Below are positions 10,671 to 15,961 of a stretch of 32,061 bases of DNA, piece after piece. Position numbers and translations under genes: made by a program. The notes beneath the pieces are model-generated. The model worked only from the letters and a program-made list of their open reading frames with translations. It was not told the DNA's origin and searched no databases. Positions within the stretch are counted from its first letter, which is position 1, and every line of letters starts with the position of its first letter. The DNA is from an uncultured bacterium (GTDB lineage: Bacteria; Planctomycetota; UBA1135; GCA-002686595). The DNA is taken from positions 1-32,061 of the forward strand of contig CALHGQ010000128.1 in NCBI GenBank assembly GCA_938030175.1, given 5' to 3'.

Positions 10671-13600
10671 CTAGAAACGCTTCGGGCGTTCGCTGAAGCC
10701 CGGAAGCGGCAGCCTGTCTCGCTCGTCGCTGGGCGCGAACAGCTGGGAGATCAGGCCGCGCAGCACCACTGTCGGACGGTCCATGGTGCCGCGGATCGAC
10801 ACTCGCAGCAGGCTGTTCTGGATGTAGTAGAGCAGTCGCGTGAGGGGCCCCAGCTTGTCGACCAGGCTGTACCGCACTTCCAGGTCGCTTGTGACGTCGC
10901 CCTCGAACGTCATGAGCCCCGTGCCGACGAGGGACATCAGGTCGCTGTCCACCCGCATGCGGTCGATCGCGAGGGAGCCATCCTCGATGGTGTAGTCACA
11001 GAGCATCTCACGGAAGAGCACCGTTGTGTCGATGCCGAGTCGCTGGGACAGAGCGCGGAACACGGGGATCGCCCACAGCGCTGAGTCCTTGACCCGGATC
11101 TCGCCGCCGCCGCGCATGTCGATCAGATGCTCGAAGTCGCCGGCGAGGCGCATCGAGAGATTCATCACGCCGCGGTTGGCGAAGTTTGAGTCGAAGACGC
11201 CGCGCAAGAACTCCCCGATGTCGACGTCGCTCATCTGCGCGGCGAGGCGGAACGGGAACGGGGCCTTGAGGTCGATGGCGAAGAGATCCGCGCCGTTGGC
11301 GACGTCGCTGCCCAAAGCTCGCAGTCGTCCGCCCTCGAACCCACCGTCGAAAGCCTCGATGACCAACCGGCTGCCGACGTAGGTCATTTGCATGCGCGCG
11401 TTTTCCAGGCGGCGGCCCGCGATGGCGCCGAAGAGCCCGTCGATCGTTGCCCTGGAGCGCAGCTCCTTGCCCTCGTGGTTCAGGTGCAAGTCCATCGACT
11501 CCACGAGCGTGACCTCGATGGGCGCGCCAAGGTCGATGAACGCATCCTCGATCCGGATCTTGCCGTCTAGCTCCACGTGCCGCGTTCCATCACGGCGCTC
11601 CGTCAGCTCCAGCTCCGCGTCTTCGATGTCGAACGATCCTTTCGCCCGAAGGTCGTCGAGGACCGTTCGCAGCGTGTCTTCGTCGAGGAAGAAGCTGAGG
11701 TGCTCGCGGTCGATCGGCAGGCCCTGGGCGCTGAGGTTCGCACGCAGAGTGGAGCCGCCGGGGACGGGCTGGTAGACCACGCCTGAAAGCTCGATGGGGG
11801 TGGTGCCGAGGCGCGCGTCGATCTCCTCACCGATCCACTCTTCGGTGTCGCCGTCCAGGCGGAAGTGGGCGGAGACGTCGCGCAGCACTTGGTCGCCGCC
11901 AACGCCAAGCTTTTCGAGCCTGGCCTCGACGCTGATTGCGTTGTCGGTGGTGGGGAGACCCGGGGACTCGGGAAGCGTCATCTCGGCCGCAAAGTCCACG
12001 CGACCCGCCACCTCGACTTCGTCCGTGTCGACGGGATCCATGCCTCCGGTGGTCGAGCTCGCCTGTCGCGCGGCGTTCGTGAGCGACCCCACCAGGCTGC
12101 GGTTCGCGATGTCGAGCCCGGCGCCCATCGCTACGAGTCGCCCTGGCGTCGGCCCTTCGCTCGACACGCGGACCGCGACGGGCACGCTGGGTCCCACCTG
12201 GCGCCAGAGGCCCTGCATGTCCGCGGCCAGTGCCGTGTAGGGGAACTCCGGCGTATCGGCGTCGGCGAGGATGTCCGGGGGGAGGAGCGAGGTCGCTAGC
12301 AAGCGGCCTTCGACCTCGCGGGTCACGATCGGGAACTGGATCGGCTGGACGGTCAAGCCCTGGCGTCGATCGTGGGGGCGTACCTCGGCGCAGATCTTCA
12401 TGCCGCCGAGGTAGGGGACGACGTCGAGGTTCGCCCCGTCCGGATCGTCCATGAGGCTCGCCCGCAAAGCGGCGGCCTCGACGGAGGGCAGCTCGTTCAC
12501 GGCGGTCAGGGAGACGTCCACGAAGCCCGCCACACCGACGGCCTCCAGGCTGGCGGCGGCCTCTGGGTTCTTGCGCGCGACCTCTTCCCTGAGCTCCTGG
12601 GCCCGGACATTCACGCGCCGGGCGTCCAATTCAAACCAGTTGAGCGTCCGCGGGTTCCCGTCCGGTGCCCCTTCCCCTGCCACCCGGCCGACCACGTGGA
12701 AGGGATCTCGGGCGATGGGGCTCTCGGCCTCTAGGTCGAGCTGCACGAGGACGCGTCCGCGCTCCGGGCCCCCGCCGTCGGTGCGAATGCGGATCGAGCC
12801 GTCGGATCCTTCGATGGGGATGGGGAGCTCGCGCCATCGGAACCCGACGCCGTCCAACTGGGCATCGAGGTCCATGCTGAGCTCGCGGCGATGGATCGTT
12901 CGCCAAAGCTCCAGATTCAGGTCGAGGCTCCCGCCGCCCGGGTTCCAGGTAGGAATGAGCTCGCGCACTTCCGGCACTCCGTAGAGCCCGATCATCGCGG
13001 TCTCGAAGTCCTGGTTGAGGGGCAGTCGCTCGCTCTTCACGCTGAGGTGAAAGGGCGTGGGGACAAGGTCCACGAGGGACTCGTCCGCGAAGCGCCAGAT
13101 CGGCGTGAAGTGGAGCGACCCCTGCACGCTGATCGGACCGCCGGAGTGCGAACCCGTCATGTTGTAGAACGCGAGCTGGCCGGGGAAGCGGCCCTCGGGG
13201 CGGATGCTCCACGTCACGTCGCCGACGACGCGCTTGACCGGGAGCGGGAAGCCAACGTCCCGCCGTCCGGTGCGGCGGTCGATGCCGCCGTGGTAGGCGA
13301 GGCTGGCGTCGCCGCGCGCACGAATCAGGAGCAGCCGCTCCAGGGAGCGGCCGACGGGCTGGTCCGCGACACGCGCGCTTGGGAGCCGAACGCCGATGGA
13401 AACGTCTGCAGACCCCTGGGGCGCCAGCATGCGATCGATCTCGACGATGCCCTCGAGCCCGGCGCTGAGTTCGCTGAGTCTCTCGCCGAGCGGAGCACCG
13501 GGCAGGTCGAGCCATACCTCAAGATCGGAGTTCTCAGGTGCGCGCGTTCCGGCGCGGAAAGCTGCGGCACCTTGCAGCTCTTCCCACTCAGCGCTCAGCG

Positions 13601-14714
13601 TACCTACGGCGCGCCATGCGCTAGGCCGCGTGGGGTCGCCGTCTTCGCCCGCGTCGAAGCCCACCTCGGCCAGAAGGTCCACGCCCTTCACCGGCCTTGA
13701 ACGAGCGGACTTGAGCCACGGCAGGACAAGCCCGCCATCGGAGACTCGAACCTTGCAGTCGACAGCGGGGAGGAGTGAGCGGCCGATCTCGTACGTGGCT
13801 TCGAGCGAAAGGTCGAGCAGCGCCTCTGGCTCAAAGCGCGCGAGGGCCTCGACGGGCGCGAGGTGCTCCAAGGAGTCGAGGCTGAGCTGGATGGACTTGG
13901 CGACGCCGCGGACACGGGCAACCCGGTCGTCGCCGACGGTGCCGCTGAGCCAGATGGTGCCGTAGCCGCCCTCGTCACCGATGGCGGGTCCGCCGGGGGG
14001 AGGGGCGTCGGTCTCCGTTGCGATGCTCGGGGTGAAGCGGCCGGCGATCCTGGTGCCGACGGCTTCGGGAGCCTCTGATTCGCCGCGGTTGGGCTGGGTG
14101 AGCGAGAGGTTGGCCGTGCCGAGGTGCGTGATCTGTTGGTCCTCGAGGACGAGCGCGACGGAGAGGTTCCGCAGCGCCACCTCGGGGCTCTTGGCGAGCA
14201 GGTCCACCGTCGACCCGGTCGTGTCCTCGTCGGTGCCGCTCCCGAGTCCCCTCGACAGGTCGGGGGAAATCACGATGGAACCGCCGTCGACGTCGACGCG
14301 GTCCGCGTGGAATCCTGTGCCTGGCGCCCAGCCGAAACGGAGCCGAATTTTGTTCCCGACGAGCCCTCCCTGGATCCGGTCCCCGGAGGACGGGCCCATG
14401 GAAAGCTCGCGAATCTCGACGCTGCGCTTGAGCCAAAGGATGTCGACGTCTTCGATCGTGACGTCTTCTCCGAGCGGGCCCTCGACCCGGTCCGCGACGG
14501 CGCTGGCGATCCAGCGCTCCAACCTCGGGTGATGTTCCGCGCCGAGGGCCAGCACGATGAGGACGAACGAAAGCCAGCCAAGTGCCAGAATCGCGGTCCA
14601 AACGCCCCGCTGCAGGGAATTTGACGATTTCGCTGAGCCGCCCGAATACGACGTCTGAGTGGCGCTCGGGGCACCTTCTCTTTGATCGGTCGCTTTGGGG
14701 TTTTGTGGCTTCAC
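10671..14714 (-). CDS. Large AsmA-like envelope protein
   Basis: 1347 residues from a GTG start. A polar N-terminus (1-36) precedes one transmembrane helix (about 38-58, ILALGWLSFVLIVLALGAE), after which the chain is periplasmic. The segment just after the helix (VEGPLGEDVTIEDVDILWLK) is the typical opening of AsmA-type proteins. The rest is a long run of beta-strand repeats. The last 200 residues, including MSLVGTGLMTFEGDVTSDLE and RGTMDRPTVVLRGL, match the AsmA-like C-terminal region. Proteins of this superfamily (AsmA, YhdP, TamB) form elongated beta-groove bridges and help move phospholipids to the outer membrane or maintain its integrity. Which member it replaces is unclear. It supports a two-membrane envelope. 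A weak ribosome binding site leaves the exact start open. Confidence 0.87.
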   Translation of the reverse strand: MKPQNPKATDQREGAPSATQTSYSGGSAKSSNSLQRGVWTAILALGWLSFVLIVLALGAEHHPRLERWIASAVADRVEGPLGEDVTIEDVDILWLKRSVEIRELSMGPSSGDRIQGGLVGNKIRLRFGWAPGTGFHADRVDVDGGSIVISPDLSRGLGSGTDEDTTGSTVDLLAKSPEVALRNLSVALVLEDQQITHLGTANLSLTQPNRGESEAPEAVGTRIAGRFTPSIATETDAPPPGGPAIGDEGGYGTIWLSGTVGDDRVARVRGVAKSIQLSLDSLEHLAPVEALARFEPEALLDLSLEATYEIGRSLLPAVDCKVRVSDGGLVLPWLKSARSRPVKGVDLLAEVGFDAGEDGDPTRPSAWRAVGTLSAEWEELQGAAAFRAGTRAPENSDLEVWLDLPGAPLGERLSELSAGLEGIVEIDRMLAPQGSADVSIGVRLPSARVADQPVGRSLERLLLIRARGDASLAYHGGIDRRTGRRDVGFPLPVKRVVGDVTWSIRPEGRFPGQLAFYNMTGSHSGGPISVQGSLHFTPIWRFADESLVDLVPTPFHLSVKSERLPLNQDFETAMIGLYGVPEVRELIPTWNPGGGSLDLNLELWRTIHRRELSMDLDAQLDGVGFRWRELPIPIEGSDGSIRIRTDGGGPERGRVLVQLDLEAESPIARDPFHVVGRVAGEGAPDGNPRTLNWFELDARRVNVRAQELREEVARKNPEAAASLEAVGVAGFVDVSLTAVNELPSVEAAALRASLMDDPDGANLDVVPYLGGMKICAEVRPHDRRQGLTVQPIQFPIVTREVEGRLLATSLLPPDILADADTPEFPYTALAADMQGLWRQVGPSVPVAVRVSSEGPTPGRLVAMGAGLDIANRSLVGSLTNAARQASSTTGGMDPVDTDEVEVAGRVDFAAEMTLPESPGLPTTDNAISVEARLEKLGVGGDQVLRDVSAHFRLDGDTEEWIGEEIDARLGTTPIELSGVVYQPVPGGSTLRANLSAQGLPIDREHLSFFLDEDTLRTVLDDLRAKGSFDIEDAELELTERRDGTRHVELDGKIRIEDAFIDLGAPIEVTLVESMDLHLNHEGKELRSRATIDGLFGAIAGRRLENARMQMTYVGSRLVIEAFDGGFEGGRLRALGSDVANGADLFAIDLKAPFPFRLAAQMSDVDIGEFLRGVFDSNFANRGVMNLSMRLAGDFEHLIDMRGGGEIRVKDSALWAIPVFRALSQRLGIDTTVLFREMLCDYTIEDGSLAIDRMRVDSDLMSLVGTGLMTFEGDVTSDLEVRYSLVDKLGPLTRLLYYIQNSLLRVSIRGTMDRPTVVLRGLISQLFAPSDERDRLPLPGFSERPKRF

Positions 14715-14858: not shown

Positions 14859-14864
14859 TTGACA
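14859..14864 (+). promoter_or_regulatory. Possible -35 box of the histone gene
   Basis: A perfect TTGACA lies 117 bases before the histone ATG in the 266-base divergent region. No good -10 hexamer follows at 16-18 bases, so it may be recognised by another factor or be chance. No strong Shine-Dalgarno sequence precedes the ATG at 14981. Confidence 0.3.
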
Positions 14865-14980
14865 TTGCCATTTCCGGTAGCCAATCTCCCATCAGCGTCA
14901 CGGATTCCAACTTTGCCACCGCACACTGGAACCCACCCCCCAAGACCCCATTCCGTTCCTTACGGACGGACACAACTGAT

Positions 14981-15250
14981 ATGGCTAAGAAGAAAGCCTC
15001 ACGTTCGAAGAAGAAGTCGACCCGCAAGGCACCCGCACGGAAGGGCGCTCGCAAGAAGACGACCCGCAAGAAGAAGGGCGCGACCGGCGACCTCATCATC
15101 AGCAAGAGCCGCACCAAGGCGATGGCCTCGCTCAACGTCTCCTCTGACTTCTACGGCGCCCTCGACGAGAAGGTCCGCGAGATGATCACGATGGCTGAGC
15201 ACCGCGCCACGGAGAACCGTCGCGCCACGCTTCGCCCCCAGGACCTCTAA
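14981..15250 (+). CDS. Bacterial histone-fold DNA-binding protein with basic N-terminal tail
   Basis: 89 residues. Residues 1-33 form a tail with 13 Lys and 5 Arg and no acidic residue, in KKK, RKK and RKKK clusters. Residues 38-89 look like a histone fold: helix 1 near KSRTKAMASL, loop NVSSD, long helix 2 FYGALDEKVREMITMAEHRA, loop RRATLR, and a very short helix 3 (PQDL) at the C-terminus. The ending TENRRATLRPQDL closely resembles the xGRKTVRPEDL ending of bacterial histones such as that of Bdellovibrio (DUF1931-related). It is inferred to bind DNA and organise the nucleoid as a dimer. It is monocistronic: divergent from the AsmA-like gene and followed by an intrinsic terminator. The tail alone could suggest an H1-like protein, but the folded core argues for a true histone fold. 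Confidence 0.88.
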   Translation: MAKKKASRSKKKSTRKAPARKGARKKTTRKKKGATGDLIISKSRTKAMASLNVSSDFYGALDEKVREMITMAEHRATENRRATLRPQDL

Positions 15251-15341
15251 AGAGTCCTGCTGGGTCCGCTCCTTCGCCCTTTTCCCCGTGCGGCTTCACG
15301 CTTCGCTGGGATCGGGCGTCCGGCGCACCCTGCGTTCTTCG

Positions 15342-15384
15342 CGCCCGCGGCTGCTTGGCTCCCAAGCAATCGTGGGCGTGTTTT
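15342..15384 (+). terminator. Intrinsic terminator after the histone gene
   Basis: A 17-bp stem (15342-15358 with 15362-15378) with two G-T wobbles and one mismatch, closed by a CTC loop and followed by TGTTTT. It lies about 90 bases after the histone stop and 30 bases before kptA, so it should isolate the histone transcript. Confidence 0.75.
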
Positions 15385-15415: not shown

Positions 15416-15961
15416 ATGGCTGATCCCAACGTTCGGCACTCCAAGTTCATGAGCCTCGTCCTTCGGCACCGGCCGGAACTGATCGGGCTAGAGCTCGACG
15501 ACGCCGGCTGGGCTGACGTGGAAGCGCTGATGGCCGGCGCAAGGGAGCAGGGCTACGACATGGATCTCGCTAGGCTCCAGGACGTTGTGGCGACCTGCAA
15601 GAAGCAGCGCTTTGCCCTGAGCGACGACGGCAAGCGTATCCGCGCCAACCAGGGCCACTCCGTCGACGTCGAGCTGGGCCTCGAGCCCGAGACGCCGCCG
15701 GACCGGCTGTACCACGGAACCGTGGACGCTTCGCTGGCGTCGATTCGACAGAACGGCCTCAGCAAGCGAGCGCGCCATCACGTGCACCTCTCGCCGGACC
15801 TAGAGACGGCGACGGTGGTGGGGGATCGCCGCGGCGCGGCGATCGTGCTGGTGATCCTCGCCCGTGAGATGGTCGCGGCGGGGCACGAGTTCTTCGTCTC
15901 GAAGAACGGCGTTTGGCTGACGGACGAAGTGCCGCCTGAGTTCATTCGCTTTCCGGACTAA
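15416..15961 (+). CDS. kptA: RNA 2'-phosphotransferase (Tpt1/KptA family)
   Basis: 181 residues, the usual bacterial length. The family transfers a 2'-phosphate from RNA to NAD+, giving ADP-ribose 1'',2''-cyclic phosphate; in fungi this finishes tRNA splicing, while the bacterial substrate is unclear. All signature parts are present: SLVLRHRPELIGLELDDAGW (Arg17-His18), RANQGHS (Arg76 and His81), YHGT at 99-102, HVHLSPD near 122, and GDRRGAA with Arg138 near the fourth conserved arginine. It therefore looks catalytically intact. Its 3' end overlaps that of the convergent tsaB by four bases. The upstream terminator suggests a promoter of its own close to the ATG, but I see no clear hexamers and no strong ribosome binding site. 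Confidence 0.95.
   Translation: MADPNVRHSKFMSLVLRHRPELIGLELDDAGWADVEALMAGAREQGYDMDLARLQDVVATCKKQRFALSDDGKRIRANQGHSVDVELGLEPETPPDRLYHGTVDASLASIRQNGLSKRARHHVHLSPDLETATVVGDRRGAAIVLVILAREMVAAGHEFFVSKNGVWLTDEVPPEFIRFPD

Follow-up and report, generated by a model that had tools for sequence, protein, structure and literature searches.

The window, which is the whole 32,061-nucleotide stretch of DNA that was analyzed, carries an open reading frame that runs from ATG to TAA and is a real gene, encoding a small basic protein with a predicted histone fold (Table 1). The first 36 residues of this protein contain 13 lysines and 5 arginines, all of them within residues 1 to 33, and no aspartate or glutamate. 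The remaining core of 53 residues has 9 K/R against 8 D/E, and the computed net charges are about +17 for the tail and about +0.5 for the core. The protein ends in RATLRPQDL, with the stop codon directly after RPQDL. The original prediction, made from the sequence of the window, had described an 89-residue protein with 18 basic and no acidic residues among the first 33, which was exact on a recount. It had also placed the gene alone between a divergent gene and a terminator, and the gene is indeed solitary, with a divergent open reading frame upstream and a terminator-like hairpin downstream. The product of the divergent gene has 1347 residues, appears AsmA-like by eye, and has no Pfam match; members of the genus have a homologue in the corresponding position. 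Between the histone gene and tsaB there is a gene for a KptA/Tpt1-type RNA 2'-phosphotransferase, which was not found at this position in the relatives read.

Table 1. Positions of the histone gene, its segments, and the flanking features in the window
Feature	Position	Strand	Evidence or remark
Divergent gene, AsmA-like product	10671..14714	-	
Sigma-70-like promoter, TTGACA-N17-CAATCT	14859..14887	+	TTGACA/TTGACT equally spaced before the motif in most close relatives
Conserved 13-mer GCGTCACGGATTC near predicted transcription start	14895..14907	+	single occurrence in the 7.17-Mb genome
Tailed α3-truncated (probable FtF-type) histone gene, 89 amino acids	14981..15250	+	profile matches to HTkC and HLp
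N-terminal basic tail, residues 1-36, net +17, no D/E, predicted disordered	14981..15088	+	pLDDT about 50
α1 helix, residues 42-49 (full-length model; low confidence in core-only model), SKSRTK motif, K46 = FtF α1 lysine	15104..15127	+	
α2 helix, residues 57-78, carries R75 of the FtF dimer-dimer interface	15149..15214	+	
L2 loop and one-turn α3 (N79, R81, T83, D88, L89), RxTxxxxD motif	15215..15247	+	
GC-rich hairpin, then TGTTTTCGTT, terminator-like	15340..15380	+	folding
KptA/Tpt1-type RNA 2'-phosphotransferase gene	15416..15961		

Scans of the single window protein against Pfam and NCBIfam gave no match above the cut-off (DUF1931 came out at E 0.09; the core is short), and a single-sequence search found the PDB chain 9QT0 at only E 0.045. 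A profile of the core, built from 13 sequences that all belong to the same order, matched HTkC of Thermococcus kodakarensis (PDB 9F2C) with an E value of 2.6e-9 and HLp of Leptospira perolatii (PDB 9QT0 to 9QT2; 9QT0 was the chain matched) with one of 4.5e-7; no other entry scored better than 0.37. HBb (Bd0055) of Bdellovibrio bacteriovorus (PDB 8CMP and 8FVX) was unmatched by this order-only profile at E up to 1. When other planctomycete relatives were added to the order sequences, the broader profile matched HLp at 2e-21, HTkC at 8e-14, and HBb at about 1.5e-9. One further match, G000:C703 (E 0.43), was rejected as low-complexity lysine similarity. The full-length AlphaFold2 monomer, which rested on a shallow alignment, had a disordered tail with pLDDT near 50, a confident α2, and a single-turn α3 at residues 86 to 88. 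A core-only model gave α2 and α3 at pLDDT 90 to 96 and brought no gain for α1, which was still below 60. In Foldseek, HLp was the top match, followed by HTkC, and no E value fell below 0.02. A second structural aligner placed HTkC, HLp, and HBb at Z 4.0 to 4.5, values that are low on its scale and effectively tied with one another and with eukaryotic histones. The histone-fold assignment is thus drawn chiefly from the sequence profiles, with the model agreeing and α1 weakly modelled. The profile search and the monomer prediction therefore bear out the fold that had been proposed, and the tail, whose basic character had been noted, was predicted to be disordered.

Orthologues were found in 47 of 61 relatives, nearly always as a single copy (G016 has two), and the absences may reflect incomplete assemblies. 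Across the phylum, matches occurred in only 40 of 294 genomes, and every match of at least 50% identity lay within the same order; among named relatives, Planctomycetes bacterium Poly30 is the closest. In most members of the order the histone gene converges on tsaB-glmM, which points to an old locus that has been vertically kept.

Next, we considered which class of histone the protein belongs to. According to Schwab et al. 2024 (PMC11390915), α3-truncated histones are defined by an α3 of 3 to 4 residues, and those of the face-to-face (FtF) type form a torus tetramer and conserve R48, N52, R54, T56, and D61 together with K16 of α1; HBb-type bacterial dimers are described there as being without the conserved R48 and N52, and both classes are reported from Planctomycetota. 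In the window protein, the modelled helix at residues 86 to 88 and the end of the chain at residue 89 leave an α3 of this truncated length, as originally predicted, and not the full α3 of about 10 residues that marks HMf-type (nucleosomal) histones. Residues R75, N79, R81, T83, D88, and K46 align with the published FtF signature, the spacing from R75 to D88 is identical to it, and all six residues are invariant over 20 diverse relatives. The L2 threonine, the RD clamp, the ISK.RTK motif, and the FtF interface residues are likewise strictly kept among the relatives. HLp, which has R49, N53, R55, and D62, forms tetramers both in solution and in crystals, with DNA bound along the rim of the tetramer (PMC12701072). 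Because the signature residues are present, HBb-type dimers as so far described lack the R48/N52 pair, and HLp with the same residues is tetrameric, FtF is the best filing that the sequence suggests for this protein. The comparison with Bdellovibrio that had been offered holds for the short helix 3, which is common to HBb, but the tetrameric FtF histones HLp and HTkC are closer by sequence and signature.

The window histone shares with HLp the truncated α3, the R49/N53/R55 interface, the R55-D62 clamp, the α1 lysine (K17 in HLp), and an N-terminal extension, although its tail is far longer and more basic. Position T27 of HLp is V53 here, T56 is A82, and S52 of the interface is E78, and the IISKSRTK motif is specific to the order. 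HTkC, to which the order-level profile gave its strongest hit in the PDB, has the same fold and a short α3 but is archaeal and tail-less. HBb shares the truncated α3 histone fold and the RD clamp; it differs in having neither the R48/N52 pair nor a long tail and in being described as a DNA-bending dimer. The distance from K46 to R75 is 29 positions, compared with 32 in HLp, 34 in HTkC, and 33 in HBb, so that α1-L1 lacks 3 residues relative to HLp and 5 relative to HTkC. This deletion of 3 to 5 residues lies at the end of α1, the site of K21, which contacts DNA in HLp (PMC12701072) and has no counterpart here. The shorter α1-L1 and the loss of K21 could change the geometry of the bound DNA.

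Tails in the order are about 10 to 56 residues long (median, 32), with just 10 to 12 residues in some members, and of the 39 tails that reach 8 residues or more, 38 contain no aspartate or glutamate. Their composition is 41% K, 24% A, and 9% R, so K and R make up about half. The entries for L048 and L056 begin at an internal ATG because of the way they were parsed, so these two orthologues should not be taken as tail-less. Because the tail is retained across the order, is nearly always free of acidic residues, and is about half K and R, its persistence goes beyond chance. Among 40 orthologues, those with a higher tail charge tended to have a lower core net charge (rho -0.43, p 0.006, uncorrected for relatedness), a correlation that is suggestive only. 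The near-neutral core and the gap in α1 suggest that a large part of the DNA affinity resides in the tail. Tails also occur in planctomycetes outside the order. L064 (G330:C1), from a planctomycete of another family, is an HLp-like histone with a tail of about 52 residues that contains 31 K/R and no D/E.

Taken together, we consider it likely that the gene encodes an α3-truncated histone of the FtF type, probably tetrameric, with an unstructured tail that binds DNA. Two chains would pair via α2 to form a dimer, and two dimers would probably join via R75, N79, R81, and the C terminus into a ring-like tetramer. DNA would be bound or wrapped at the tetramer rim, the arrangement seen in HLp and proposed for HTkC. 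The K/R tail of 36 residues probably binds DNA without sequence preference; nearly all of the positive net charge sits in it, about +17 for each chain and about +70 for a tetramer, and it may help to compact the nucleoid or bridge DNA. This reading draws on the profile matches to solved histones, the model and its structural matches (HLp, HTkC, and HBb foremost), the signature residues with the invariant α1 lysine, the orthologues mostly beside tsaB-glmM, the acid-free tails, the HLp tetramer precedent, the conserved solitary promoter, and codon usage in its own genome. The poorly predicted α1, the shorter α1-L1, the E78 in place of S52, a codon signal that is weak or absent elsewhere, and the presence of HU count against it. 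Since HU is also encoded in the genome, the main architectural role need not fall to the histone; the original call of a nucleoid protein is right as a probable one. The only HU homologue found (L038, G000:C33, positions 1399-1920) has a low-complexity, non-basic C-terminal extension of about 75 residues.

A more specific version of events, which we offer tentatively as possible, is that the FtF core of this order turned neutral and lost part of α1 while the affinity moved to the acid-free tail, such that DNA is wrapped or bridged mainly via tails, and that the gene is controlled by a promoter element of its own that occurs nowhere else in the genome. We regard as unlikely the idea that the protein is chiefly an H1-like charge neutralizer, in which the tail works on DNA and the fold is an oligomerization handle, so that DNA is coated or bridged without being wrapped. 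The charge difference between core and tail, the position of HLp K21 in the deletion, and the inverse relation of tail to core charge would all fit such a protein, but the L2 threonine, RD clamp, ISK.RTK motif, and FtF interface are kept more strictly than an oligomerization handle needs, and the shortest tails in the order also argue against it. Still less probable is an HBb-like histone that bends DNA as a dimer and uses the tail as an extra DNA-binding arm. The broader profile does match HBb, its structural Z score ties with those of HLp and HTkC, and bacterial dimers also occur in Planctomycetota according to PMC11390915; against this, the counterparts of R48 and N52, which that source describes as missing from such dimers, are present and invariant, and the profile confined to the order picks up HTkC and HLp but misses HBb. 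The last alternative, a simple basic peptide lacking the histone fold or an open reading frame that arose by chance, would explain the empty single-sequence Pfam and NCBIfam scans and has a negligible probability, having been refuted by the profile matches and being opposed by the structure model, the invariant residues, and the order-wide conservation.

The original prediction was right on identity and wrong on newness. The combination of a long tail with a short helix 3 had been thought new, a view that is outdated because PMC11390915 already reports positively charged N-terminal tails in the majority of bacterial FtF histones, a group that includes Planctomycetota. These histones share with the window protein the FtF signature, the positive and non-conserved N-terminal tail, and the phylum; no essential difference was found, and the available part of that source does not treat the members of this order individually. 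What is new is the detail: an order-wide gene that mostly lies beside tsaB-glmM, tails that hardly ever contain acidic residues, a shorter α1-L1, a near-neutral core, and a conserved promoter 13-mer. A search for planctomycete orthologues with the same tail, which had been suggested, was fruitful. Histone tails are commonly presented in teaching as a feature of eukaryotes, and the window histone is a good, not revolutionary, example of bacterial DNA packaging with histones. The order provides a vertically inherited set in which one conserved core carries tails of widely varying length, a natural series for the contribution of the tail that includes Poly30, whose genome sequence is complete.

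Finally, we examined the signals around the gene. A generic scan for promoter and terminator consensus listed neither the promoter nor the hairpin; the -35 and -10 elements and the hairpin were assigned manually, from comparison with relatives and folding. The 13-mer GCGTCACGGATTC lies upstream of the orthologue in all 8 members of the genus that were read and also in two genera outside it; several more genera have partial matches. The pattern GCGTYACGGAWTC occurs once in the genome, and TTGACA followed by GCGTYACGG was also found only at the histone gene. Candidate roles for GCGTCACGGATTC are an operator, a start-region element, or a leader element; in the genus, it is followed by an extra CACCGCAC block. 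Codon usage of the histone gene in its own genome scored 0.794 for similarity to ribosomal genes; 21 ribosomal genes themselves ranged from 0.627 to 0.765, and none of 34 background genes exceeded 0.716 (z 3.7). The protein may be abundant; codon usage was dropped as a proxy for this because the signal, strong in its own genome, was weak (z 1.5) in Poly30 and did not appear in G024. The 171-nucleotide stretch with the downstream hairpin had a folding z of -4.2, and strong hairpins that share no sequence lie 3' of the gene in most relatives read; the hairpin is plausibly the end of the transcript.
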